DNA of 64,000 bases, taken from contig CM012953.1 of assembly GCA_000181795.3 (NCBI GenBank), positions 13,460,838 to 13,524,837 of the forward strand. Direction: 5' to 3'. The notes beneath the pieces are model-generated. The model had not been told where the DNA came from and made no database searches. It was given only the letters and a program-made list of their open reading frames with translations. This stretch comes from Trichinella spiralis. Its lineage: Eukaryota; Nematoda; Enoplea; Trichinellida; Trichinellidae. The position numbers were made by a program, and so were the translations under genes. Of this stretch, positions 812 through 56,525 are shown piece by piece (the first letter of the stretch is position 1; each line of letters opens with the position of its first letter).

Positions 812-1043
812 ATTAGTGGTGACGTTGACTATTTAAATTTAACTTTGTTTTATTGTAAAGTTGCTTCATTTGCTAAATTGGCCAAAATTTTATTTTATTA
901 CAAGCAGAAGTAAAATGTTTATCAATCAACAGTATTTGTTTGTTGATTATTTCTACCGGTGACTGGTGCTTGGTCCAGTTGGATATTTGTTCAATATTTA
1001 CAGTTGAGTTGACTTGATGAATGTGATTTGAAATAGAAATTTA

Positions 1044-1051
1044 TATTTCAG
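1044..1051 (+). promoter_or_regulatory. Candidate splice acceptor (possibly trans-splice) before the PRMT9-like gene
   Basis: The sequence tatttcag ends 26 bases before the PRMT9 ATG at 1078. No upstream exon of this gene is visible between the Derlin stop (811) and this site. It could receive a spliced leader or join a non-coding 5' exon; the sequence alone cannot decide. Confidence 0.4.
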
Positions 1052-1077
1052 GCTTTAATTTGAAAAATTTCGACAGA

Positions 1078-3336
1078 ATGGAGACGTTTTCATTGGCCAA
1101 AGCTAGAAAATATCAGGAAGCTGGCAATTATGGCGCCTCGATTGCGAATTACTTTTACATTTTGAAGAAAGAACCACATTTGGACAATGCTATCCAGCGA
1201 GAGTTTTTCACATGTTTTACCAGCTTTGTCCAACAGCTCGAAAGTCGAGGCATGTACCGGGATATAATGGAATATTTTGAAATGGCCGAACAGTGCTTTC
1301 CCAGGTCTAGTAAACTTTGCAAGCAGTTGGGTGAATTTTTGCTTCGTCATGAATTCTACGTTGAATCAGCTGGCTGGCTTTTGAGAGCATTGAGAATGGA
1401 ACCGAATTCTGCCGAAATACGCCATTTGTTGGGAAGCACAGGCGGCCATTTGTTCGAACGATGGCATTTTCGTATGCTGAACGATTTTCAACGTAACCAA
1501 GCTTATTGTAAAGCTATTCAATCTGTGGTTTGTAGTGACCATGGTCCAGTGAATTCGATGCTCGATCTCGGTTGTGGTACGGCAATTTGGAGCATGGTAG
1601 CTGCCCAGGCTGGTGTAGAACGGATCCACGCATGCGACAGCAATGTGGTGATGTACCACATTGCCAAGGAGACTTTGAAACGCAACGGTTTCCAGGACCG
1701 GGTTCAGGTAACGCACGCTCATTCGAGTGAATTAGATCTGCCTGAACCGGTAGACTTGGTTGTCTGCGAATTGATGGACGCCGGCTTTTACGGCGAAGGT
1801 ATTGTCGAAACATTGTACAACTGCTTTGACAAGTCGTTGGTCAACAATAGCGTGGATCGTCAATGTTTGATTCCAAAAGGAGCGGTCATATACGGGGCTT
1901 TGGTCGAATGCGAAGAAATCCGTCGCAGTCATGTTATCGAAGGGAAAGAAAAATTCGGCTTGGTGGCTAATTTGAATTTTGAAGTGAGGTCGAATTGTGC
2001 ATCGTTCATGCCCCCTGCATCAGAAGAAATATTCCAAGCCGTCGAGCCGTACGATTCTGTCATGATGCGCAAAGTGAAGGGCGGCTATCGGATGTTGTCG
2101 GAAACGTTTGTGGTCGACCAAATTGACTTGACCGACGTTGGTCAGTTGAAAGCTCGTTTGGATGGACAGGAACAGTTGATCGAGGTACGTTGCATTCAGT
2201 CTGGAAAGTTGGACGCCATAGTTTGCTGGTTTCGGGCCGAACTGACCGATGGAATCTACATCGACACTGGACCGGAAAACTGTACATCTTGGGAGCAAGC
2301 AATTTTTCCAGTCTCACTTGATTTACAGTGTAATAATAATTGGTGTGAGCTTGATCAGAAAGTTCTCATAAGCTGTCAGGTGAAAGGCAACGAACTTCGT
2401 TGCCGTGTTCTTCAAGCTGCCGAAGAATACCGCTACCAGATAGAGATCATACCAACGTCGAAATTGTCGATGCTCAACGATCTAGCATTGCTTCGAAGTT
2501 ATTGCAATTCGTTCAGCAAGTTGACAAACGACACCAACTTGGCATTGTTCGACATGAGCCACAATCCTTTGATCACCACTGCCGCTTGCAAACTGACGAA
2601 CATGGACGTCTGGTGCCGTGCCGACGCCCCACCCGACTGGGATACTTTCTTCGCCAAAGTGGTCGCCTGCAACGCTGAACAGCAATGTCGGATTCACTTC
2701 CTTGGTCGTGATTCAGCAACAAATGGTGGAATGGTAAAATTTGAACGTTTGATCTGCATGCCGGTTGAAACATCCGGTGTACTTGCGCCGGACGTGCTCG
2801 AAACTATCCTTTACAACCGCCTCACTCTGGAAATCGACCACGTCTTGCCAGAACAACTGCGCGTATTGGCGATGCTAGTATCCAGTGAAGAATTGTCCGA
2901 ATATTGTCGTGTGCTCGACGACACTCGTACGCTGGGCTTTTTCATAGCCGACCAAGTGAACGCGTTCCAATCCGACCATTTCGAAGATGTGGAACCAAGC
3001 ACGCTGTTCAAAACGGAACTGACCGAACGTTTCGAATTGTTCGGGCTGGATTTGCAGCAGTCGTTGGATCCGGAAAATTACAACTTGCCAGCCATGTGCG
3101 AGCAAACGGTGACAAAACAAGTGCGAATAAAGCGAGACGGTAAGCTGAATGCCGTGTTCTACTGGTTCCGAGGCGACTGTCCGAGTATCGATTGCTTGCT
3201 GTTCGACACGTCCGACGAAAATGGCCATTTTCGACTTGCCGGCTGCCTAGTGGAACCAAGACCAGTGTCCCGTGGAGAGATGTTGACCATCCGAGGGACT
3301 TTGGAAAGAAGTTCAATTTTCATAACGGTGGAATGA
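1078..3336 (+). CDS. PRMT9-like protein arginine methyltransferase with N-terminal TPR repeats
   Basis: PRMT9 symmetrically dimethylates arginine, in other animals chiefly on the splicing factor SF3B2. A single open exon encodes 752 residues, somewhat shorter than the roughly 845 of human PRMT9. I chose the ATG at 1078, which follows a splice-acceptor-like tatttcag; the frame is open for only six more codons upstream. Residues ~1-120 are helical TPR-like repeats. SAM-binding motif I (MLDLGCGTAIWSMV) is at ~161-174 and the acidic double-E loop (CELMDAGFYGEG) at ~230-241, with both glutamates kept. A TSWEQAIFPV stretch sits where PRMT9 has its THW-loop equivalent. The second, degenerate methyltransferase-like half typical of PRMT7/9 is present, and the extreme C-terminus (RGEMLTI...SSIFITVE) matches the PRMT9 end. 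It lies in tandem between the Derlin and the coiled-coil gene. Confidence 0.92.
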   Translation: METFSLAKARKYQEAGNYGASIANYFYILKKEPHLDNAIQREFFTCFTSFVQQLESRGMYRDIMEYFEMAEQCFPRSSKLCKQLGEFLLRHEFYVESAGWLLRALRMEPNSAEIRHLLGSTGGHLFERWHFRMLNDFQRNQAYCKAIQSVVCSDHGPVNSMLDLGCGTAIWSMVAAQAGVERIHACDSNVVMYHIAKETLKRNGFQDRVQVTHAHSSELDLPEPVDLVVCELMDAGFYGEGIVETLYNCFDKSLVNNSVDRQCLIPKGAVIYGALVECEEIRRSHVIEGKEKFGLVANLNFEVRSNCASFMPPASEEIFQAVEPYDSVMMRKVKGGYRMLSETFVVDQIDLTDVGQLKARLDGQEQLIEVRCIQSGKLDAIVCWFRAELTDGIYIDTGPENCTSWEQAIFPVSLDLQCNNNWCELDQKVLISCQVKGNELRCRVLQAAEEYRYQIEIIPTSKLSMLNDLALLRSYCNSFSKLTNDTNLALFDMSHNPLITTAACKLTNMDVWCRADAPPDWDTFFAKVVACNAEQQCRIHFLGRDSATNGGMVKFERLICMPVETSGVLAPDVLETILYNRLTLEIDHVLPEQLRVLAMLVSSEELSEYCRVLDDTRTLGFFIADQVNAFQSDHFEDVEPSTLFKTELTERFELFGLDLQQSLDPENYNLPAMCEQTVTKQVRIKRDGKLNAVFYWFRGDCPSIDCLLFDTSDENGHFRLAGCLVEPRPVSRGEMLTIRGTLERSSIFITVE

Positions 3337-31093: not shown

Positions 31094-32867
31094 ATGGGGG
31101 CTTGCCTTGGCAGAGGTCATATATCAACCTATGCTGACGATTTAGAAAACACAAGTATGGAATTTAACACCTACCTCTTTCACTTTGATTTCTTTTAATT
31201 AAAAAAATTTTTTTACATTCATTACGTTTAAAGCAGCTTTAAACCAAACAAACAGCTGTATTGTTAATATATTCTGCACTGTTCATATTTATAAGAAATT
31301 TAGTAATAGTTAAATTTATTATAATATTTGATTAAAATTCTTTTGGAAGAACAAAAATACAATTAGTTAATAAACACAGAGCAAATTAATTTTTTTCCAT
31401 TGTTTCAATTTTGTTATAAATTGTAATTTTTTGATATTGACTTTCAATAATGCTCGTTTGTTATAAAGCAGTAATGTATGGGATAGAAGCATTTCAGGAA
31501 ATATATCTCCTGTTATGCGAGTTGTGTTATTCCGGAAGAATCTGTTCTTTAAGTTATTTTAATTTCTATTTCTATTCTATATTTTTTATTTATAGTTTTT
31601 ATAGGCACATATTTTAATGTATGGAAATAATTTTAGTTTAAAAGTGACATTTCATCAAACATCAATACTATTGTAGTTATTATTGGTAAGAGCAGACCGC
31701 TGATTCAAGAAAAGCCAAAATGGAAATCTGATATTCCTGTGACCATTAATGAAGTGGTCCTAAAACGGAAAGAATTCTGGGAAACAGCGCCAGCTTTCGA
31801 GGGTCGGAAAGAAATTTGGGATGCTCTGAAAGCAGCCGCTCTTCAATCTGAACAGGGTGACTTTGCTCTTGCGCAAGCTATTTTGGATGGAGCTTGCATT
31901 TCTTTGCCCGATGGTGAGCGTTTTTAATGTTGTGTCTTTAATTTGTAAACTGTGAAAATGTGCGTAAAATATTCAGTTTGCATAACGAGATTAAACTTTG
32001 ATAAATCGAGACTATACAGTATGAAATGTATTAATGATTTTCAGGTAGTTGAATGAAGTAAACAGTTTATGTTATTTTTTGTTTGTCAATATATGGCAAT
32101 TTATGATTTAAAAAATTTAATTGTAACGCTTTTTATCCTAACATGTTTTGTTTTCTGTTTGTTAGCTTTTGTAGTAGTAAGGTTTTTGTCGCTTTCATCA
32201 ATATTCACAAATGGAAATGGAAATTCATATGAAAATTGTCTATTATTTATTATGCTTGTATTTACATGTGTGAATTGAAATTATAGGTACACTTCGTGAG
32301 TGTTATGATGAATTAGGCAATCGTTATAAGATACCTTTGTACTGCCTTTCTTTTCCTAATAATTTGGTAGAAGAACGCGCACTGCCTTCTGAACCAAGCG
32401 ATGTGTCGGTTGACTGTGAAACAGTAGTAAACGAGGTGCAAACTTGCAGCATAAAATTACGCATTTCGTCTACCGGCAAAGACGTCCGATTATTGTTGAA
32501 AAGCACAGACTCTGTATTAAAAGCGAAAAATTTGTTGCATTCATTGATACCAGATTTACCTCCGCCGGAGAAGCAGCGTTGGTTTTTTGGTGGCAAGATG
32601 CTTCACGATCGTGCGCTTATTAAAAACTGTAAAATCCCGCCCATGTTTGTAATTCAAGTTGACGCATCTTGCAAAGAGAGGATTTCTCCCTTTGAGAAGA
32701 ATGCGACGAAAGATTGTGCTTTAAAATTAGGAAAATTTGTAAATGATTCTCAGCTAGATCCGAACTTACAGTTTACGGGAAAACTGCATGGCAAATGTGT
32801 TCCTGTGGTTGATCATTTGTCGCATAATCACAGCCGAGAGAATTTACCAACCCCCGTGGATTCTTGA
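31094..32867 (+). CDS. Ubiquitin domain-containing protein, UBTD1/2 family
   Basis: UBTD proteins are membrane-associated ubiquitin-like-domain adaptors that interact with E2/E3 enzymes. Exon 1 (31094-31154) begins MGACLGRG, matching the MGxCxGR start of UBTD1, where Gly2 would be myristoylated and Cys4 palmitoylated. The DC-UbP/UBTD2 N-terminal domain is in the exon ending 31913: KWKSDIPVT, then [20 protein letters not shown] and [14 protein letters not shown]. The final exon 32287-32867 continues [20 protein letters not shown] and has the C-terminal ubiquitin-like fold ([33 protein letters not shown]), followed by ~55 extra residues not seen in the human proteins. The link between exon 1 and the second block (from ~31690) is not resolved; a small middle exon near 31499-31522 would fix the phase but is speculative. 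Confidence 0.88.
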
Positions 32868-39829: not shown

Positions 39830-40560
39830 CTCTCCATCCACTGCTTGGTGCTGGATGATGGGCATTTGGGGGGGGGGGGATATTGACCTTGATTGACTTG
39901 CCGTGTTGGGCATATTGTTGTTCGTTCGCCTTGGGTTATTGGGTCAATGCGTCTGGCGGGCGATCGATCGATCGACACTGGCCGATGGTCAGCAGCTGCT
40001 TGTTTACTTATAGTTGGAGCCAGGCACTGCCTGACTTGCTCTTATTTGCCCCAGACGGTCAGTGGCTGGACGCGGCCTGGTCATGCGGCAGGTTTGTTTA
40101 CCAGCTGCGCGGCATCTATTGGCCGCCTCCTTATTATTTATTGAACGCCAAACGCGAAAGCGTTCATTTCAGGCCATTCGGCGATGCTGGTCAGCGGCTC
40201 GGTTTTCTCTCTCTCTTCTCTTCTCTTCTCTTCTTTTCTGTTCATTCACATTCACATCCCCCCTTTGCTTGTTCATTTACATCTCTCGTTTTCTCTTGCT
40301 TTTCATTTTTTTTTCTCCATTTAATTTTTCTCAGACAATTTTCTCGAGTCCAAATATCGACCAGATCTCTTAAGGTATATTTTGGTGTTTCTCAGCCGAC
40401 CTGATCCAACTCTCGAATAGCAGCTTTTCTCTGTGCTTGTTCAACTTCATCCGGTGTCTTTCGTTTGCCAAAATATGCAATTTTATTAATTTTTCCCTTT
40501 TCATTTCCTTCTTCTATCTACTACATGTCGGTGACGGTTAAACTACGGCTGGCATTTTTT
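39830..40560 (+). promoter_or_regulatory. GC-rich region upstream of miR-100, candidate pri-miRNA promoter
   Basis: Base composition changes sharply from the AT-rich desert to a CpG-containing stretch with poly-G (39868-39879), an overlapping cgatcgatcgatcg run at ~39961, ctattggccgcc (CCAAT-type) and CT-rich tracts (40205-40235). It lies directly upstream of the miR-100 hairpin. The role is inferred from position and composition. Confidence 0.4.
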
Positions 40561-40611: not shown

Positions 40612-40697
40612 GCGCGACCGAGTCAACCCGTAGATCCGAACTTGTGTTCAGATTTTTGAGCATCACAAGCTCGTGTCTGGGGTGGACGCTGTCGTTG
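40612..40697 (+). ncRNA. mir-100: miR-100 precursor hairpin
   Basis: The 5' arm at 40625-40646 matches the 22-nt bilaterian miR-100 exactly (it begins AACCCGTAGATCC and ends CTTGTG). The 3' arm at ~40664-40686 (cacaagctcgtgtctggggt) pairs with it: ACTTGTG-CACAAG is perfect, the middle carries a small bulge, and the base is closed by GTCAACCC against GGGGTGGAC and further G-C pairs. The terminal loop is about 17 bases (ttcagatttttgagcat). miR-100 belongs to the miR-10/99/100 family, related to the C. elegans mir-51 family. In most bilaterians it is the first member of the miR-100/let-7/miR-125 cluster and is co-transcribed with the others, as here on the same strand. A strong 5' splice site (GTAAGTA) follows at 40734. 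Confidence 0.97.
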
Positions 40698-40733
40698 CCC
40701 AGTCAACTTTTCCACTTGCTTCCACCGGATACG

Positions 40734-40740
40734 GTAAGTA
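40734..40740 (+). promoter_or_regulatory. Strong 5' splice-site match after miR-100
   Basis: ACG|GTAAGTA matches the donor consensus at seven positions, 37 bases after the hairpin ends. It suggests that miR-100 lies in, or overlaps the end of, a host-transcript exon. Confidence 0.45.
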
Positions 40741-43420
40741 GGAAGTGAAACAAATTGAAAAAGACAACCGTCACCGCATGTTATTGGTACAAATAATTTC
40801 GCTTTTTGAAATATTTTTCGAATCGTCCGATTTGTTAATTTTTATAATTCTTTTTCCATCAAATTCGCCCACGATGGCATTAACAATTGGTGCCGGTCGG
40901 TGGCATGCTCGAATTTGCAGTTGTTGTGATCAAAGAGTGCCTGCAAATTGATTTGGCTTGTGGTCGGTCGTTTACTACTACTGCTGCGTGCGTTTTCTTT
41001 CAATTTTCCCACTGGCACGACCGACGCGTTTTGATGCGCCAGACGCTGCGTGGCGGGTTCGAAAAATCGATTCGCCCGTCTAGAAACGGGCCAATAAACA
41101 AAATTTAACAGCCCCAATTGCGCGTGGCTTGTCTGTCTGGCCGTCTGGCTAGCTAGCTAGCTTGTCTGGCTGGCTGGTCTACGTAAACAACGTGCTTCCT
41201 AGACAGAACAGGTGAACTTGTGACAAATGATGAACAATGATGCAAAAGATAGCATTTTCAAAAAATGTGTAAACATTCAAAAACACCAATACGTAAAATG
41301 TTGTCGAACAAATTGACCACAATTAATATAATATACATTTGTACATAATGTGAAATGGAATTTTATCAACGCTTGACACTACGCTTACGTTTTTCATTCC
41401 AATAAATTTTGCATCGGAGATCAAACAAAAAACTAGCTAGTAAAATCAATAATTTGCTTTTTGTAATGTGAGAAATGTTTAACGTGCACCAAGTGAAATG
41501 CAGTTGAGGGTGGTTTGTCAATTTTTTGAAAAAAAATTTTATCTTTCAACGTTAACTGAACCGGAAGTTGTTTTTTATTTTTCAATTTTATTAAAATTTT
41601 ATCCTTTTTTATTCATTTCTCAACAGATGCAAATCACAAGTTTCCTTCCGCAAATGAAAATGATAGAGAAATAAATATTGTTGATAAAAACGATTTATGC
41701 ACCATTTATTATTGTATGAAAAACTGAAAATCTTATAATTAAAAGTATTAATTAAATTTTTTTTACATTATAAACTTAAAATGAGACATTTTTCAATAGA
41801 ATGTGCTTTTTTATTAATTTATCGAAAGTAGTCTGAATATTTTTCGTACAATATTGAATGAGCATACTGTAAGTTTTAGAAATCATGTACGTTTTCCAAT
41901 TTGCAAAATTATTATTATTAAGTACAGTACTTTGCACATTTAGTTCGAAATTATCGATTGTAATATAATTTTTGAATTTAATTAAGAAAAAAAATGTTAC
42001 ATTAAATTGAATTTGTAAAGATTTTCTAGTTGAATGCTTTTTGATTTTTGTTTGAAAAAAATAAGCTTTGATTGATCAGATTTTCAGAAATTTTATCTTC
42101 AACAGTCAAGTGGGAGGAATGGAATGGATGACATTTATTGAAAAAAATAAAATAATGAAATAAAGAAAAGAAAAGAAAAATTTATTTTTCAGCTTGTTGT
42201 GTCATTTGGAATATAGTTGAACAAATTTTTAAATATTTGCATGTTTGAAATATTTTGAAATGTCAAAATTGTCATTTTTCAATGTTTTCAATGTTCAATT
42301 CAAATTTTCAATTTAAAATAATAATAATTTCTATTACCAAGCTGTTAAAATATGAAAAATTCTACAAACAGAAAAAAGGTTGGGGGTGGAAGCTGTGTTA
42401 GTAGTGAATAAATAATTTTTGGTTTTTATTATAGTCAAGAAAATGGATGAGTGAAAAGAATAGAATAGAATAGAATAAAATAAAATTTAGAAAAGCAATA
42501 AAGTATAGTATTATTTCGTTCGAAATGTCCCACACAAACACACACAAGGGGTTATTTATTGCATTAATTTTTCATAAATTTAAATTGTCACACAGAGCAG
42601 CAGACAGTGGAAAAATTTGTTTGTCATCCAACGCTGTTGCAACAACGGTTTTTTGTTAATGATTGGGAAATTTGCAAAGGGTTTTAAAATTTAAATAAAT
42701 TTCAATGGCGCGTCGTGTTTTTTTTGGTAAATATTTTTACTCCCCCTATTCATCACTGCGTACGTATGAACGAGTGTAAAAGTTTTGAGAAGAAGAAAGA
42801 AGGAAGTTGTCTTTATCACTTTGACAAAACAAATAAATAGAAAATGCGGAAGAGATGGAGAAAAGATTTTTTTCTTCCTTCCTTCCGTGTGCGTTTTTTG
42901 ATTCATTTAATTGAATGATCACATTTCTTCTTTCTTCCGCTACAGCTGCCATTCAATATGCAACAAATTATTCTCATTATGTACATCTAAATCTACAATT
43001 CTGTTTGTTCTTTTTGTATTTGTATACAAAAAATCTAAACTATAATTTATGTTTATTAATCATTATTTTATTTGTCGATAAATTTGTATAAAAATGAGAT
43101 TTTTCTTCAGAGAAGTATATAAATGGTTAGAATGAAGAGAGGCTTGAAGATGTTCAAGTGTAAGAGGAATTTCATCGGTAATCTATCTATCATTGACGGC
43201 AGATAAAAATCACCAACAAACTTGAAGAGTAATAAATACTTGAAGAAAAATGAACATTTTGCATGTAATGCTGTAAAGGTAATAATAATACACCTATAGT
43301 ACTGATGATGTAATAATAATAATAATTATTATTATTAGGGGTAATAGTAATAGTAGTAGTATTTAGTAACGGTGATGATGATGATGGTGGTGGTGGTGAT
43401 GTTGGTAGAAAAGTGTACAC
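40741..43420. other. Interval between miR-100 and the internal promoter
   Basis: The first 400 bases are GC-rich, with ctagctagctag and repeated ctggctggct motifs at ~41140-41180. The rest is AT-rich. No further microRNA hairpin or gene was recognised. Simple repeats begin to accumulate from 43270 (ATT/TAA and GGT/GAT runs). Confidence 0.4.
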
Positions 43421-43526
43421 AGAAAGCCGCTTTTACGGTCAGACGTCACGCAAGCGTCTGTCGGGTTCAATAAGCTATTTAAACAAAACTGCCTGACGAG
43501 CTGTGTAAAACGTCAAGCAGCTTCAG

Positions 43527-43534
43527 TATAAATA
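43527..43534 (+). promoter_or_regulatory. TATA-box candidate (TATAAATA) of an internal promoter
   Basis: TATAAATA lies 42 bases upstream of a GC-rich segment with an ATG in good context (gtcgccATGG). A CRE-like gacgtcac sits about 90 bases upstream of the TATA. The spacing fits a core promoter driving the short exon at 43576-43639 and the transcript that follows. Confidence 0.4.
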
Positions 43535-43575
43535 AAAAGAAGTGATTATAGAAATTTCGATTCGTCGCCGTCGCC

Positions 43576-43639
43576 ATGGGCGGATGCGGTCTGCTGGCGT
43601 CCAAAGTTTCCACTTTTAATCAGACATATCTGAACACAA
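43576..43639 (+). CDS. Short first-exon candidate encoding an MGGCG-type N-terminus
   Basis: The ATG in a strong initiation context opens MGGCGLLASKVSTFNQTYLN and meets a strong donor A|GTAAGAAG at 43640. An MG(x)C start is a classic myristoylation/palmitoylation signal, though 21 codons are too few to call a protein. Without splicing the frame continues through AAG repeats to a stop near 43730. It may be a real peptide-coding exon, or the first exon of a host RNA for let-7/miR-125 with incidental coding. I found no downstream coding partner. Confidence 0.3.
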
Positions 43640-44222
43640 GTAAGAAGAAGAAGAAAAAGATGCTTGGTTATTATTATTTTTTTTTTAATAATATTGCATT
43701 GATGAAAGCTTCACAGTGTGAAAAACTTGGAAACTGAAAAGAATAAGAAGAAATTATGGAAAAGACGAAATTCAAATTCATCACTTCTACTGATTATTTT
43801 ATTGTTATGGTTGTTGGTATTTTTTTTGTTCTTTTCCTGAATCATCATTTTTGAGAAAAGCAAAAAAAAGTAAGTGTAGAAATAATAAGAAAAATCAAGT
43901 ATTAAAATTTGAAAAAATAACACAAAAAAGAAGACAGACAGAATTTTTGCAGACGTAATTACCGGACGTCTGTAGAATTTGAAGAACGAACCTTGAAGGA
44001 AGTACTTGAGAAAAAAATATCCACATATATACATATGTGTATTCTTTGCAAAGACATGATGCCAAGTTCACACAAATCGAATTTAAAAAGCGGAAGCGTA
44101 ATTCTCGCTTAACGGTTGGCTTATTTTTCCACAAATGATTTATCAGACCGTGTGCACGACTAAGTGATTTGCGTTCCAGACATCGCATATGTTGTCTACG
44201 TTTGCACGTTCACATGACATTG

Positions 44223-44223
<1 letters not shown>

Positions 44224-44264
<41 letters not shown>
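44224..44264. repeat. (TA)n microsatellite, ~41 bases
   Basis: A perfect alternating TA tract. A similar tract lies at ~47742-47771. Confidence 0.9.
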
Positions 44265-44266
<2 letters not shown>

Positions 44267-47200
44267 GACTGAGTGTGTATGGGTATGTCTATCTGTCTTC
44301 TTGACCGTTGCGTATATACTTATACATCCGTCTGAAGTCATGGTAAGTGTTATTTTGGTTGCTTTTTTCCCATTTGAAACAGATTTCAAAAAATTGAAAT
44401 TAGCAACATAATTAGCAATCACAACTGTTGTATGTATGATTTAAAACTTTTTCATGACACTGAAATTTGATTCATTTCTTAATCAATACGATGGTGTTAT
44501 TTCATCTTTTATGCAAATGAAAAGTTAAAATTAAAATCAAAGCAAAATTGAAAAATTTGAAAAAATAAGCAAGTGAAAGAATCCGGTTAGAAAAAAGTGT
44601 AAAATTATAGATCAGAAGTAGCGGCTAAATAGAAAAAAGGGGCAGAATTTGTTTTTTGAATAGAATGCGGAAGTAAATTTCTACAGTATGATTCAATTCT
44701 TTTTTTTTTTTTGAAATTCCATTTTGATATTTTATTTCAATTAAGAAAACAGTTTATTTGATCTTTTCAACGAAGATAAAAGGCAATTGTTGTTGTTGTT
44801 GTTATTTTTGTTTTAAATTTAATTTTTTATAATAATAATAATAATAGTATTGTTGTTGTTTTATATTGATGAGGAAATTGAAAATTTGTTTTACAATTTT
44901 GAAAGAATTTCAACTTGAACAGAGTTAGAAGAAAAAGAAAAAAAATCGTCCTGTCTCGTTTCACCTCATTGATTTGCGTATTCATCATTATCATCATCAT
45001 CATCAGCGTTGCCGTCGACGTCGTCGCTTGCCCTTGACATCATCCAAAAGGCGGAAGTAAGTCTGTCATCGGTGGATGAGAGTGTGTTTGTTTATTTTTT
45101 TTATGAAAATAACATTTTACGTAATATTTTTTGTCAAAAAATTAAAATATTTTTTAAAATATTCTTTCAGTGATTTATATATTTGAAGAAGAAAAAAAAT
45201 ATTTGGTAATTTTCTATTTTTTTTCTTTTGTAAATATTCCCATCGATATACAATTATTAGAACGGTTGATTGGAGGTGGTATTAATTAATGAGGCCTCTT
45301 CTGAGGGGTAGTTGACTTGCAGGTTCCATTCTACAACTGGCACGACCATGTCAATTAATTTATACAACCAATTCACGAAAGACCTTGATTGGGGAGTTGA
45401 AAAAAAAACGTTTAATTTAATTGTAAATTAACCTTCTTCTTTTTTCCCTAGTTTTGAAGCTTTATAATTGTCAATTTCCTTTTTGCTTCCTTTTGTTGTT
45501 GTGAAAAATAATGAATAGATTGCGTATTGTACAAATTTCAAACTGTAAACCGTAAAATGTTATTGATGTATTATTTTTCTTAATTTCATAAAATAGGGCT
45601 TAAATTTTAAAATGAAAAATAAAAAAGATGACGTTGTCTAATTTTGTATTTTTTACATGACCTAGTTTGTGAAAATTGAAATTGTTCGGCTATGATGTTG
45701 CAAAATGTGTTACTTAACGGTTCAATTGGTTTCGACGTTGTTTGAATTCGAAAGCAAAAAATTTTTCGTGCCACATCACGAAAAATAAAACAAACTCACA
45801 GATTTGTTCGTAATATGAAATATTTTAATTTTTTTTATTAATAATTGTGAAAATTGTTTTTTTTTGACATTGTTAGAAAAAGATTTTTTTTACCATAAAA
45901 TGAATAATAAGATTGATTGATTGGTCAGTTTTGAAAAGGTGAAGAAAGATGGATGGATAGATCTACAGTAGAATGTAAATTGAAAACAACCCGGAAGCTT
46001 TTTGTTTATAAAAATTATATTATCTATCATTCAGTGCAGTGTTGAAATGCATCTTATGTGATGGGCGTTTTCGACTATTTTGATGTTGATTTTTCTTGTT
46101 ATTATTGTTGTGTACATATTTATGCATAAAGTGGTGAAACTGTACGTTTATTTATTCTTGAATTCCATTGATTTCATTTTGATATTTCAGATGTGTAGTA
46201 TTTTATTGTTGTTTTTGAAATCATTTATAATAATAATAATCGATGAATTATTTTATTGAAAAGGTAAGAAATGATAAAATATTTCTTATTTTTAATTACT
46301 GATTTCAAATTTCACGTTTTATTATAAGTAGTCGAGTATGAATTTTCTGTAATTCATACAATGATATACGTTGCTTTACTTGTACGTGTATGTGTGTGTC
46401 TGTCTGTGTGTGTGGTCGTTTGTACAGTCATCAATAATTGCCATTGGATAGTGGAAATCAATCAAAAAGTAACATAAGTTCTATATATTATGCGGTACTT
46501 TTTCATCTTTGCTCAATTTGCATTCTTCTACGACGTGCTTTCATGTAAAAAATGACCAATGAATTCTTTTTCCAGTGATGATGAATCAGCTATTTTTTTT
46601 GTTTGAAAATTTATTTTTTAAATTGTCTGCTTTGTCAATAATAGAACCAACTTTTGAACTTCCTTTTTTTTTCTTACTGAAATTGAACTGGAAATCTTTA
46701 TTTTTTGAAATTGATTTTTAACCAGATTCTAATTTTGAGAAATGTAAAAATAAATGAATTATCCATAATTTTTTCTTTAATTAAAAAAAATTGAAAAGTA
46801 TAATATTTAATTTTATTTCGATTACAATCATTGATTAGAAATCAATTTAAAAAAATTTTTTGTACTATTACACTACTGTTATGAAAATTGGTCACCTTTT
46901 GTGTGTGCAGTGTAGTGTAGTGTAATAAGATATATCGCTGACAAGGAAGGAAGAAAAAAAATATATATATATTTCAATGCTATTATATGATGAAGGAAAA
47001 AATTAGAATCAGTTTTATGTACATGAAAAGTGACTGGCACGCTTTGACACGTAAGCGATAATGATATCATCGAAAAAATTTATCTTTTGTTCTTTTTATT
47101 TCATTCCACTTCCGCAAACGTTTTATTATTATTATTATTATGATCAGCATTAACATTTGTTAGATATATTGATCTGATAAGAATATAATATATGGAAAAA

Positions 47201-47740
47201 TAATAATTGTGTTTTTCGTTACTACTGTTATTATTTTTATTTTTAAATTTATACATTTCCCTGTTCACTTTCAGTGCTTTTTTTCCGTTACATCTTGTAT
47301 ATAAATATATTAATTTTTGTTCCCTAATATTTTCTTTTTTTCATCAGATATTCTTTTATTACTATTCGAGTGCTGGAAAGCAGATTTATCTAAACAGTGG
47401 CAAAGTAGCAATTTTATATTTTTAAATAACTAACGATCTGTGAGAATATAGTGTGCGTGTGTGTGATGTTGCTTTTTTTTCATTTCCCACTTTACATATA
47501 TTTATTTTATTTGGTCGATAATATCCACTTTAAGAAACCTTAACGGTAGTAAATAACGAAAATTACACATTTTCCTTGTCATTGAAATCAATAATATAAT
47601 ACAAAGAATTATTTAAATTTTAGTTCAAAAAGAAAACAATAGAAAGGTAACTATTATTCAATTTTACCATCTGTTACAATTGTTGTTGTTGCTGATAAAC
47701 GGAAAAAAATTCATAAAATCTGTGGTCGTTGCTTGGAAAC

Positions 47741-47776
<36 letters not shown>

Positions 47777-49360
47777 TTTTGGTGTTATTGTTTTATATAT
47801 TTTGATAGTTGAAGAGAAGAAAAGAAAAAGGAATGAATATTTATTACTTCATCAATAGCAGTATCGCAGATCAGTGTTCTCATAAATTTCTACAGTGATG
47901 CTATTGTGAATATGATGGTAAAAAGAAAATTTCCATTCCTTCTTCTATTCATCCATTGTCTTCCACTTGTATTTATTTAAATTTCACGGCGTCAGTTGTT
48001 TACCAGACTGTCTAGTGTTGTCGTCAGACAATGTTCTAGCTAACATTAAGCTTCAAATCTGTTTTTTTAATGTTTTTCACTAACTTGAATTATGAATTAT
48101 CATACAAATTGAAATTCATTTTATTTTTTCAAGATAATAAGGAAAAATGGAGAATTTATGTTGTTCTCTTTTTGAGACATGAATGAGTTTTGCATTCCAG
48201 TGTTGTTGGGGCGTTGGCGTTTGTTTTTTTTTTACCGCATGATTGTGTTGTATTTTATTATAAAAACCTTCGGTCGTTGAAGTTGAGACGGTGCGCAACA
48301 TTTTGCAGACAGACAGTTCAGAAATTTCCAGACACAAAGCCACTCTCAGACAGCAATAAAAGCAAGCATCTATATAACTATGCAGACAGAGACGTTGTTG
48401 AAAATAAAGCAGAAGAGCACATAGAAGAAGAAAATTTATATAAATACTATTTCATCATCATCATCATCATCATCGTTGCTGTTGCTGAAGTTGCTGTTGC
48501 TGCTGCTACTGCTCTATGCAATCTTTCCAGTTTGCTGTTTTATTTTTCTATTTTAGTAAGTTTTCAAGTATTATATATATATATATAAACTGTTATATGA
48601 ATAGTAGGGAGAAAGGCACATTTTTCATCCAAATTTATACAACTATTTTGTTAAACCTTTATTTAAATGTATCGTTCACAAGTCACTTGTGACGTCGATA
48701 TATAATAATATTCAGTTTTGCAAACAAAAATTGTCTGTCTATCGTGTAATATATAGCATATACTAGCTCTGACTGACTGAAGGAACGAGAGAATAGTTTT
48801 TCCTCATTTTTTAAGCAACCAACCAGCGTCTACATTCGCTCTCCCTCTCGGTTTGGCTAAATATAGTCGAAATGGGAATGGGCGGTTCGTAGTGGCCATT
48901 TCGTCCAATCAAAACGCTTCGACAAAACAGCCAGTCGAACGAACATTCGGCCAAAAAAAATTTGAATAGTAAAAAACGTTTTGACGTAGCCATTAGCAGG
49001 ATGCAGTTGGTGTATTCTATTCGTGCTTTTCGTTGCTCTTGCTCTCTCGCTCTCTCTTTCAGTCAGTCAGTCAGTCAGTCAGTCATTCACCATGTCGTTC
49101 GTTCGGTTGTGCGCTGTGCGTTCAGTTCTGTCCAATCAGTCAGTCTATACAACTGACTCTACGTTGATGCTACTACGGCTAGATTGGAAGAACAAGAGGA
49201 ACAAATTTTCCCCAAGCGCAGATGTTTCTACACATATCTGTATATTGAAGAATGATTAATTATTATTTTCAGACAGTGGTTGATTGGTAGGTATAATTTA
49301 TAATTTTTATAAATTAATTTTTCATTCATTTCAGAGTCTGTTCTGTTCTGTTCTGAATTC
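44265..49360. other. Simple-repeat-rich interval upstream of let-7
   Basis: No coding gene supported. There are many microsatellites: (TTG)n and (ATA)n at ~44789-44850, (CAT)n at ~44985-45003 and ~48453-48475, and (CAGT)n at ~49061-49086. A GC-richer segment at ~48830-49260 with ctccctctcggtttgg and a CCAAT motif (cgtccaatc) may be upstream regulatory DNA for let-7. A short composition-distinct patch at 45270-45390 could be another element. Confidence 0.4.
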
Positions 49361-49369
49361 ATCGTTCAC

Positions 49370-49378
49370 TATATAAAG
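49370..49378 (+). promoter_or_regulatory. TATA box candidate for let-7
   Basis: TATATAAAG lies 96 bases before the mature let-7 start, inside a GC-mixed segment. Initiator-like TCAG sequences occur about 30-40 bases downstream (gccatcagcag, gccatcagttg). It would place a transcription start just 5' of the let-7 hairpin base. Confidence 0.5.
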
Positions 49379-49452
49379 CCGTCTGTCTATTCGAATGCCA
49401 TCAGCAGTAGCCATCAGTTGTGTGTATTGTTTTTTTTTTCTTATTCGTTGAA

Positions 49453-49559
49453 GCGTCGTTCTGTCTGAGGTAGTAGGTTGTATAGTTGAGTTGAACAAAG
49501 CAACAGGCTTCCCAATTGTTGCTTTTACAACTAATACAGCCTGCTAGCTTAGACAGCGC
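49453..49559 (+). ncRNA. let-7: let-7 precursor hairpin
   Basis: The 5' arm at 49466-49487 matches the invariant 22-nt let-7 (TGAGGTAGTAGGTTGTATAG plus TT). The 3' arm at ~49529-49552 (aactaatacagcctgctagc) pairs along almost its whole length, with G-U pairs and one bulge. The lower stem is CTGTC against GACAG and then GCG against CGC. In the large loop a second stem AAAGCAAC/GTTGCTTT folds back, a feature of many let-7 precursors. let-7 silences heterochronic and proliferation targets, and its processing is often blocked post-transcriptionally by LIN28 binding in the loop. It is plus-strand, 8.8 kb after miR-100 and 2.1 kb before miR-125. A donor site GTAAGA follows at 49724. Confidence 0.98.
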
Positions 49560-49723
49560 CACGCAAATTTCTACAAACTACTACTACTACTGCTACTGCT
49601 ATTACTACGCCTGTCCAATAAATTGAACAACGACAAAACAGACAGACAGACAGACGGACGGAAAATATTTCGAAATATATTCAACTTTAACCACGTTGAA
49701 AAATAAATAAAATATAAAAATAG

Positions 49724-49729
49724 GTAAGA
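49724..49729 (+). promoter_or_regulatory. 5' splice-site match after let-7
   Basis: TAG|GTAAGA lies 165 bases after the let-7 hairpin. It would end a first exon that contains the hairpin if transcription starts at the nearby TATA box. Confidence 0.4.
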
Positions 49730-49739
49730 AAAGAAAAGA

Positions 49740-50806
49740 AAAAATTTTAATAATTTAATTTTTATCGTGTCAAATAATACTTGACCAAAAGAAAAAGAAA
49801 AAAAAGCGAGACGCCGCCAAATGCCATCACCGACGCAAACGTTGCCACATAATGTGCTACCGATGAATCATTTATTGGTAAACCAGACAGCCAGCCAGTC
49901 AGTCAGTCGTGTGTCTGTCTGTCTGGTTTCATTGAAAATGAAATGGGGCGTACGTCGTAGACATAGATAGTAGTAGTAATAGTAGTGGGTAGGTAGGCAT
50001 GTGTTGGTGGTGGTGGTGGTGGTGGTGTTGGTGGTGTGTGTGTGTGTGTGGTTATTGTCGTTAGTTGAAAAGGAAATGATAATGGATTTTTTTTAAAGAA
50101 AAAATAAATCTCATTTATTTTAAATTTTATATAAAAAATTGTTTTAGAAACAAGAAAAAGGTTTATATAAGAAGAAGCATGTTCAAAAGTAGTGGTAGTA
50201 GTAGCAGGTGTTGTTGTATGGTAGTAGGAATGTAATAATAGTATGGCAAATCAGTCAATTAGCTGGCTGGCTAGCCAGACAGACAGACAACCGCGCCCAT
50301 GGTTGAAAAGAAAAGTAATAGCATCATCGTCGAGTAGTAATAGAGAAGCAGAGAAAACGCAGTCGTGTCACCGACGTCAATTGCAGACGTTGATTATGCG
50401 CGTTGGTGTTTTTATTATAGTCTGTTGAAAAAAAAATTTTTCTTTTTCCTTATTTTCCAATATTTAAACGAAAACGATTTATTATATAATATTCAAAATG
50501 AATATATATAATAATTGAATATGATGTGCTATATTAAAGGGGGAAAAAATCTACTTGCAAAGACAGACACAGTAGAGAATAATAATAGTAATACATTTAT
50601 TTTAATAGTGCTGCTGCTGCTGCACAAGAGGAGTTGGGGCAAGAAAGGATCACTTCCGTGCCGACGGCAAACTCTGATTGGCCAACGGAACAGCCGGCAG
50701 TCAGTCAGCTGACTAGACGCGACGGCATTGACGTCGTCGAATCGAGACGGTTCATTCGTTTCAGTTGGCACATTTGAACGCATAACGCGAGGTGGTGTGG
50801 TATTTT

Positions 50807-50840
<34 letters not shown>

Positions 50841-51580
50841 TTATCGATACGTCTGTCTTTCTTTATTATTCATTTAAAATTAACTTTTTATTTAATATAT
50901 TTTTGATGTTGTTATATTCAATTTCTGTTTTTACATAGTGAAGCTTTTATTCTTCATTTGCATATTTTAATATATATACATTATAGAGGGATAAATGGAA
51001 AATGTATAATTTGGAATAAATAAAATATGCATATAGTAGTTAGTAGTAGTAGTAAGAGCAACGATGATTGTCTTTGGGCTAATTTTCTTGTCCAAAAGTT
51101 GTACTTTTGCCGACCGACCGACCGACCGACCGGTAAATATAAGACTTGACTAAAAATCATTGATAAATTGACGCGCATTGCCTTTTGCAGGCAGGCATCA
51201 TTTGTCATTTTATTTTCAGACGGCCACTACTACTACTGCTACTACTACTACTACTACTACTACTACTATTACTGCTGCTATTACTACTATTATTACTATT
51301 ATTATTTTTATTATTGGTGACGTGGACTTCTTTTTGCAACCAACTTCCGCCTTTTGCGAAGAAAATCTAGTAATAGTTAGTCATCACCATCATCATCATC
51401 ATTATTATAATTATAGTCAGTCAGTACTGTTGTTGTTGTTGTTGTCTGCTGTGCGCGCCAAGTCGGTGGTTTTTATACTGTTTTGTTTGTTTGTTTGTTT
51501 ATAATTTTTGTTTTTAGCCGAAAACAAACGAACCACAAGAGAGAGAAAAGAAGAATATGTGATGAAAATATTCTTCACTT
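49740..51580. other. let-7 to miR-125 spacer, rich in simple repeats
   Basis: Contains (GGT)n at ~50008-50036, (CT)n at ~50805-50838, (CCGA)n at ~51110-51132, (CTA/ATT)n at ~51225-51315, (CAT)n at ~51383-51402, (TTG)n at ~51428-51444 and (GTTT)n at ~51482-51502. Open frames through these repeats encode homopolymer-like protein and are not genes. A GC-rich block at ~50640-50800 may be regulatory. Confidence 0.5.
51225..51315. repeat. (CTA/CTG/ATT)n trinucleotide microsatellite
   Basis: About 90 bases of interrupted ACT, GCT and ATT units. It opens long Thr- or Leu-rich frames in two frames, a repeat artefact. Confidence 0.85.
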
Positions 51581-51587
51581 ACGTCGT

Positions 51588-51661
51588 TCACCTGTTCCCT
51601 GAGACCCAAACTTGTGAAAGTGTTTCAATGTCTCATAGGTTTGGGGTTCAGGAGCTGGTGC
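51588..51661 (+). ncRNA. mir-125: miR-125 / lin-4 precursor hairpin
   Basis: The 5' arm at 51596-51617 (TCCCTGAGACCCAAACTTGT plus GA) equals bilaterian miR-125 except for A instead of T at position 13; the seed is intact. The 3' arm at ~51633-51652 (tcataggtttggggttcagg) pairs over nearly the entire length with G-U pairs. CACC (51589-51592) pairs with GGTG (51657-51660) at the base. The loop is about 15 bases. lin-4/miR-125 represses lin-28 and lin-14-type heterochronic targets. Compared with C. elegans lin-4, this 3' half is far closer to arthropod and vertebrate miR-125. It is the third member of the cluster, on the same strand. A strong GTAAGT lies at 51710. Confidence 0.97.
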
Positions 51662-51709
51662 CGATTGCATTCAACACTGCAGACTTTCATATTTTTTTTT
51701 CGTTGCTTT

Positions 51710-54959: not shown

Positions 54960-56525
54960 TTATTCCAAGTGTCGTTCGAATTTAACATAGCTGGCTGAGT
55001 CCAACAAGCTGTGCATCATGTAGCTAAATTATCACAGCTTCAATACGGAATATAATTAATTTGAATATAGAAATTACCCTATTTCACGATTTTCGTCACT
55101 GTCGGCATTTGCAGTCCACAAGCATACTTTGTGACCTTTCGAACGAACGTTGACTGCAACACCACAAATTTCTGCACCCAAACCGCTGAATTGTTCACCA
55201 AGTACAGCCATCACTAAATCTAACCAACATTCATCTAAAACTCTCCCTTCTTCTGAGCGATCAATACGAATTATCCATCGACCACCATTTTTATTACGAG
55301 GGTCTTCCCACATCGGACGCACCCCTTCTTTGAAATAGTAAAAATCACTATTGTTTGGAAGAGAGCTGGCCTTCTGTATAAAATTGTACAGACTAAAATG
55401 ATCAAAGTTAATAATATTCTTATTACAATTATACAAAAAAGAAAAATATACGCCCAAAAGTCTTCTACTGTATTGAATGATGCAACTTCCTTCAAACGGT
55501 CTTCCCAACTTATTTTACGATCATTTGTGAGGTACCACAGTACCCAAGTATGCTGCAGAGGATGTTTCACCATGTCTGTCAAAGAAAAGTTGTAAAGACT
55601 TTCAATGCCACTCTCCTCTTCTTCGAAGCCATTTTCCGAATTTGTAAAACGCTCATCGTACAACTAAATTTCAATTTTTCAATTATAAAACTGCTTAAAT
55701 CTTCACAACAATCAATGCAAATTCATTTCTTATTTAAAAAATTATAAACTATCAAAAAAATATGCAAATACAGACGTATCAACGAGGGGTATTTCAATTT
55801 TCACAAATTAATTGACAATTATTATCATTATTATGAATGCTGCTTTATTAACAATTTTCACTTTACTTATTCAGTGTTTAATGTCAGTTTGAAATTTTAA
55901 ATGCTATGCTTTTTCGTCGTAAAGTTCAGAAATCAATTAATGGAATAAAGCCAATCAAAGTGAAATACTTAAAATGAAAAATCTTATTTCTGTTAGTTAA
56001 AACATCTAAAAATAAAAAATACAGTTTCCATGACAAAAGAAAACAAAGCACTGACTCCACTACCTCATCAATGTAATACATAAGGTTCTGCAATAAAAAT
56101 AACTGATATTTGATTCGTCTTTTCAAAGTATAAATGATCAAACTCACCAATATATATATATAATTATTAAATACAAAATTAACACTTTAATAAAATATTT
56201 CATATACTTTCATATTATCTTACTGCTTATTATTGTTCATTATTATTATTACTATTACATGAGCATCGTGCTGTCTATTCTATTATATACTACTTATTAA
56301 TTTTATTAACTGCTCACTTTCACAAAATTTTTTTTTAATTAAAAATAAAACAATACTTGAAAATGTTTAAAAACAGTTCAAAATAAACTGTTTGTTTTCT
56401 AAATCTGTATAAAAAATACTGCTTAAACGAGCAAAAGGTAAATTATAATGTTTTACCTGGTCTAAAAAATATTCAGGGTCGGAAACAGATTCCAAACTAT
56501 CATCAGAGGAATGCACAATTTCCAT
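54960..56525 (-). CDS. eIF4E-family cap-binding protein, five exons
   Basis: eIF4E binds the mRNA 5' cap and recruits eIF4G for translation initiation. Exons are 56457-56525, 56064-56087 (a 24-base micro-exon), 55452-55663, 55078-55392 and a candidate last exon 54960-55008. All junctions are GT-AG and in phase, giving 222 residues. The core is clear: HPLQHTWVLWYLTNDRKISW (cap-stacking Trp equivalent), TVEDFWALYNFIQ (dorsal eIF4G-binding Trp), MWEDPRNKNGGRW (second cap Trp and Glu), and the phosphate-binding stretch VNVRSKGHKV. The N-terminus is acidic and non-conserved. The C-terminus is odd: after DENREIG it ends in about 15 residues with no IGYQSH block, so it is about 20 residues short. 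The last exon may be wrong, or the gene may be a divergent paralogue. The canonical aromatic pattern favours eIF4E over 4EHP. Confidence 0.88.

Follow-up and report, generated by a model that had tools for sequence, protein, structure and literature searches.

The worm from which the microRNAs lin-4 and let-7 were discovered has the two genes unlinked. Caenorhabditis elegans carries the same families as those considered here (let-7, lin-4 and the mir-51 family), and their clustered organisation is said, in the available part of PMC3353893, to be absent from worms. The accessible sections of PMC4244043 describe a mir-100/let-7/mir-125 cluster as being found in almost all bilaterians, and report for the centipede Strigamia that mir-100 and let-7 are linked within 1 kb, with mir-125 not found. 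In the nematode Brugia, let-7 and mir-100b are linked at a distance of at most 2 kb, with mir-125 not identified there according to the text available of PMC3282659, while lin-4 is listed for Brugia in Table 4 of PMC4019659, as far as that source was accessible. Here we describe a locus in a 64,000-nucleotide (nt) stretch of the Trichinella spiralis genome (assembly GCA_000181795.3, contig CM012953.1, positions 13,460,838 to 13,524,837, hereafter the window), which holds all three families on one strand within 11 kb, where Strigamia has two of the three. This locus is very probably the bilaterian mir-100/let-7/mir-125 cluster, complete, in a clade-I nematode.

The three mature sequences lie in the order mir-100, let-7, mir-125, all on the plus strand, with 5p start-to-start distances of 8,841 bases (miR-100 to let-7) and 2,130 bases (let-7 to miR-125) (Table 1). 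A preliminary description, made from the letters of the window alone, had placed three hairpins on one strand in the canonical order at these positions and had suspected a nematode host; coordinates, folds and identity to T. spiralis microRNAs bear out the former, and the latter was right, because all three mature RNAs are letter for letter those sequenced from T. spiralis. The single base at which the miR-125 of the window differs from what we take to be the ancestral form is likewise present in the sequenced tsp-miR-125. For the same reason the expression of the three RNAs is already published, all being in print from small-RNA sequencing (PMC3212509 Table 1); let-7 and miR-100 are listed again for T. 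spiralis in PMC7445429, the available main text of which has no mention of miR-125 or lin-4. Each mature sequence has one match within 3 mismatches across the 53.1-Mb genome in a search that passes over repeats and very common words, identifying the loci as orthologues and not stray paralogues. The assembly, the only one examined, consists of 14 contigs, three of which are chromosome-sized (19.96, 17.53 and 15.35 Mb). Patterns read backwards served as control and gave two matches for let-7 and none for miR-100 and miR-125, and chance alone would produce no more than about 1e-5 exact matches per mature word genome-wide. The main-text tables of PMC3212509 print 15 of 21 conserved and 20 of 213 novel microRNAs, and for the other 32 of these 35 sequences (Tables 1-2) the window held nothing within 3 mismatches.

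Table 1. Features of the mir-100/let-7/mir-125 locus and its neighbours (window coordinates; z, fold score against shuffled sequence; cut-off, Rfam gathering threshold in bits).
Feature	Position	Strand	Evidence
pre-mir-100 hairpin	40614..40698	+	-35.2 kcal/mol, z -3.47; Rfam mir-10 46.4 bits, E 5.9e-9, cut-off 47.5
mature miR-100 (5' arm)	40625..40647	+	23/23 nt identical to sequenced tsp-miR-100; sole genome match within 3 mismatches (first 22 nt)
pre-let-7 hairpin	49460..49557	+	-47.7 kcal/mol, z -7.51; Rfam let-7 48.1 bits, E 1.7e-7, cut-off 53.5
mature let-7 (5' arm)	49466..49487	+	22/22 nt identical to sequenced tsp-let-7; sole genome match within 3 mismatches
pre-mir-125 hairpin	51587..51664	+	-36.2 kcal/mol, z -4.85; Rfam lin-4 14.2 bits, cut-off 40
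mature miR-125 / lin-4 family (5' arm)	51596..51617	+	22/22 nt identical to sequenced tsp-miR-125; sole genome match within 3 mismatches
UBTD1 (ubiquitin domain-containing protein 1) open frame (exon), upstream neighbour	32274..32864	+	Pfam UBD and ubiquitin
eIF4E-like exon-bearing open frame, downstream neighbour	55274..55663	-	Pfam IF4E, 6.7e-11

Folding, which the preliminary description had proposed as a check, gave a stable structure for all three tight hairpins, with none of 200 dinucleotide shuffles folding as well in any of them. The mir-100 hairpin was the weakest with looser flanks (z -2.46, 1/200 shuffles equally good). When 36-56 kb was scanned for hairpins in 996 windows per strand, eight windows passed on the plus strand and three on the minus strand; mir-125 and let-7 were the top two on the plus strand, and mir-100 appeared only as an antisense window at that step size. 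The antisense strands of two hairpins are recognised by microRNA models too, at lower scores of 37.1 bits for let-7 and 30 bits for mir-100, as is usual for near-palindromic hairpins, and the strand is settled as plus by the sequenced mature RNAs. The UG and CNNC processing motifs showed no consistent pattern at the hairpins.

PMC3212509 prints let-7 as lying in the 3' arm of its precursor. Two upstream windows that would allow this fold at -11.9 kcal/mol with at least 15 let-7 bases unpaired, versus -45 to -50 kcal/mol for 5'-arm windows; since let-7 sits in the 5' arm here and neither upstream window supports the 3' arm, the printed placement seems to be an error of annotation. The mir-100 hairpin lies between the arms of a perfect inverted repeat of 11 nt (40529-40539 and 40766-40776, 226 nt apart), which may be due to chance. 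Relatives of the mir-10 family, miR-993-like and mir-10-like, are found elsewhere in the genome: a hairpin on contig C1 (5826401-5826480) contains the published tsp-miR-993 sequence in its 3' arm, and a weak mir-10-like hairpin on C3, the third chromosome-sized contig (2341955-2342028, 21.7 bits, E 0.319), could be mir-10 itself.

The linkage could in principle have other origins. C. elegans demonstrates that these families can separate (PMC3353893, available part), and this is the one point in favour of three unlinked microRNAs having been reunited by chance after dispersal; as three single-copy loci would fall within 11 kb by chance with a probability of about 1.7e-7, even without taking strand or order into account, such a reunion is improbable in the extreme. 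An assembly error, or contaminating host or arthropod DNA, is also highly improbable: a single assembly was available to us, which leaves some room for error, while the window contains no N and thus no scaffold gap within the cluster, the adjoining UBTD1 gene is that of Trichinella, and the odd base of miR-125 is the T. spiralis base.

The published counts for adults, newborn larvae and muscle larvae (PMC3212509) are 3028, 35995 and 541 for miR-100, 25573, 1067 and 5554 for let-7, and 745, 10 and 414 for miR-125, from which we calculated miR-100/let-7 ratios of 0.12, 33.7 and 0.10, respectively. The miR-100 pattern was backed by quantitative reverse-transcription PCR (qRT-PCR) in the same paper. 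These counts speak against simple co-expression of miR-100 with let-7 and miR-125.

In the proposed mechanism, Drosha and Dicer would cut the hairpins out of non-coding transcripts, and the mature RNAs would repress developmental-timing mRNAs, with lin-41/TRIM71 as a likely let-7 target. A LIN-41/TRIM71 orthologue is present on contig C3, its NHL region best matching TRIM71 structures. A predicted let-7 duplex just 3' of the lin-41 stop, in which a single seed base is bulged, reaches -23.2 kcal/mol. At a coarser step, none of 200 shuffled downstream sequences (mean -16.6) and 1/200 shuffled microRNAs did as well; repeated at equal step, none of 100 shuffled sequences was as good (best -22.1). 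Non-canonical let-7 sites occur in C. elegans lin-41 as well, and we regard this candidate site as suggestive only. LIN-28 is the usual blocker of let-7, and the genome search for it gave only two cold-shock-domain regions, read as Y-box-like and CARHSP1-like and neither resembling LIN-28, although introns could hide it; a CCHC check on one of these two regions marked none.

Several observations weigh against this reading of the locus. At Rfam gathering thresholds there were no matches in the window and none of the three hairpins was called, with the let-7 (RF00027) and mir-10 (RF00104) models both scoring just below their cut-offs, although both are clear when E-value thresholds are used. At the mir-125 hairpin the lin-4 model (RF00052) and the mir-125 model (14.0 bits) are both outscored by unrelated models, and RF00052 had no match genome-wide at E 10; hence we do not assign this precursor to RF00052, and place the mature RNA alone, by its sequence, in the miR-125/lin-4 family. 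In the expression study (PMC3212509), the low let-7 count of newborn larvae disagreed with qRT-PCR, miR-125 was outside the five conserved microRNAs validated by that method, and for adults and muscle larvae the text describes the two microRNAs miR-100 and let-7 as 'almost identical', where the table gives 3028 versus 25573 and 541 versus 5554. No canonical 6- or 7-mer sites for let-7, miR-125 or miR-100 occur in the 1,497 bases after the lin-41 stop, and the seed of the candidate let-7 site is bulged. Finally, a transcript shared by any two of the hairpins is a prediction.

Eight open frames of at least 100 aa (among 144 of at least 38 aa) lie wholly inside 40614-51664, and in neither these nor two frames beside the interval did any Pfam domain pass its cut-off, the best E-values being 0.0032 and 0.095. 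Because of this, the hairpins most likely arise from non-coding transcripts, in which short exons are possible. We moderately favour an arrangement in which let-7 and miR-125, 2.1 kb apart, would share a transcript, with miR-100, 8.8 kb upstream, under at least partly separate control, and the separate control of miR-100 taken by itself seems to us somewhat probable too. A single long primary transcript for all three, as in Drosophila, with the stage differences arising later in processing or stability, is a weaker though serious contender. The common strand and order agree with it, as do the eight longest open frames with their lack of a Pfam domain above cut-off; the members of the Drosophila let-7-Complex come from one transcript and yet differ in processing (PMC9247461). 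GC skew on the plus strand is positive in all ten 1-kb bins between 42001 and 52000, though below 0.04 in three, and negative from 52001, a pattern that, taken by itself, a plus-strand transcription unit might leave, but it is also negative (-0.065) in the bin starting at 40001 that contains mir-100. The swing in the miR-100/let-7 ratio across stages exceeds what simple co-expression would lead one to expect, and strong donor-like words in 39-52.5 kb number 2 versus about 1.6 expected by chance, so that they define no exon chain. It is the discordant ratios, the mixed qRT-PCR and the conflict between text and table that set our preference for separate control of miR-100 at this modest level.

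The preliminary description further proposed that the cluster was intact in the nematode ancestor. The finding does bear on that ancestor; the let-7/miR-100 pair was already known from Brugia, and Trichinella adds the third member. As the triple is found in vertebrates, insects and Trichinella (clade I), the pair in Brugia (clade III) and neither in the Caenorhabditis literature, the nematode ancestor would have had all three linked, and stepwise loss would be the simplest history, judging from one nematode genome examined directly and others taken from the literature. Under this history other nematode lineages would have lost the linkage of let-7 first to miR-125/lin-4 and later to miR-100. 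Together, the complete cluster in clade I, the pair in Brugia and the triple in arthropods place the break-up inside the Nematoda and make its order testable. More tentatively, the Trichinella cluster could be a halfway stage, complete and ordered, but split into two expression units, one with miR-100 active in early larvae and one with let-7 and miR-125 active later. If true, it would represent a stepwise route by which one ancestral transcript gave rise to the unlinked Caenorhabditis genes, their regulation having diverged before they moved apart.

The complete linkage appears to be the new part, the expression of all three mature RNAs in T. spiralis having been published before. We found no report of a complete cluster in any nematode in the literature searched, although one may be in print, for example in supplementary files. 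Two nematode surveys set 2 kb as the cluster limit (PMC3282659 and PMC4019659, available parts), and microRNA annotation in PMC13334664 used Infernal with default parameters against Rfam, according to the portion of that paper available. Such detection limits may have hidden the cluster, since the gaps of 8.8 and 2.1 kb exceed the 2-kb limit and all precursors score below the curated Rfam cut-offs.

UBTD1 lies about 7.8 kb upstream of mir-100, and its protein has 97% identity (over 98% of the query) to a cluster represented by Trichinella pseudospiralis and 49% to Trichuris muris. Thymidylate synthase from this genome equals PDB 5by6, which we take to be the T. spiralis enzyme, at 283/283 aligned chain residues, with 10 extra query residues stemming from rough exon ends. 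The preliminary description had proposed BLAST of the PRMT9 and kinesin proteins to identify the species; PRMT9, a single 769-codon open frame at 1027-3333 of the window, gave 12 distant matches, the best named one from Soboliphyme baturini (31%) and no named Trichinella, a result that on its own would have suggested a host other than Trichinella, and it was UBTD1 and thymidylate synthase that gave Trichinella. No match came from a search for cytochrome oxidase (PF00115) as a mitochondrial marker. The lack of a named Trichinella relative for PRMT9 may mean that Trichinella gene models are fused or cut here. The 53.1-Mb assembly is slightly smaller than the 55.3-65.7 Mb, on three chromosomes each, given for 12 Trichinella species in the available part of PMC13334664. 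Contig C3 opens with a GC-rich 62-base unit starting at bases 1, 63 and 125, and doubled TTAGGC was not found in its first 3,000 bases. Doubled TTAGGC, TTAGG, TTAGGG, TTTAGGG and TTGCA gave no matches at contig ends, where most contig starts read N, and among the hexamers listed as commonest where each of the three large contigs ends, none was telomere-like.

Human clusters are wider still than that of Trichinella; spacing alone is therefore unremarkable, and the 8.8-kb gap is no argument against a cluster. The preliminary description was nevertheless correct that this gap is far larger than in Drosophila, where a 991-bp deletion spans all three microRNAs (PMC9247461 section 16) as against 11 kb in Trichinella. 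Co-transcription has been reported in Drosophila and would be a prediction for Trichinella, and the published counts of T. spiralis are not parallel. In the three families, their order and their common strand, the Trichinella locus and the Drosophila let-7-Complex are alike.

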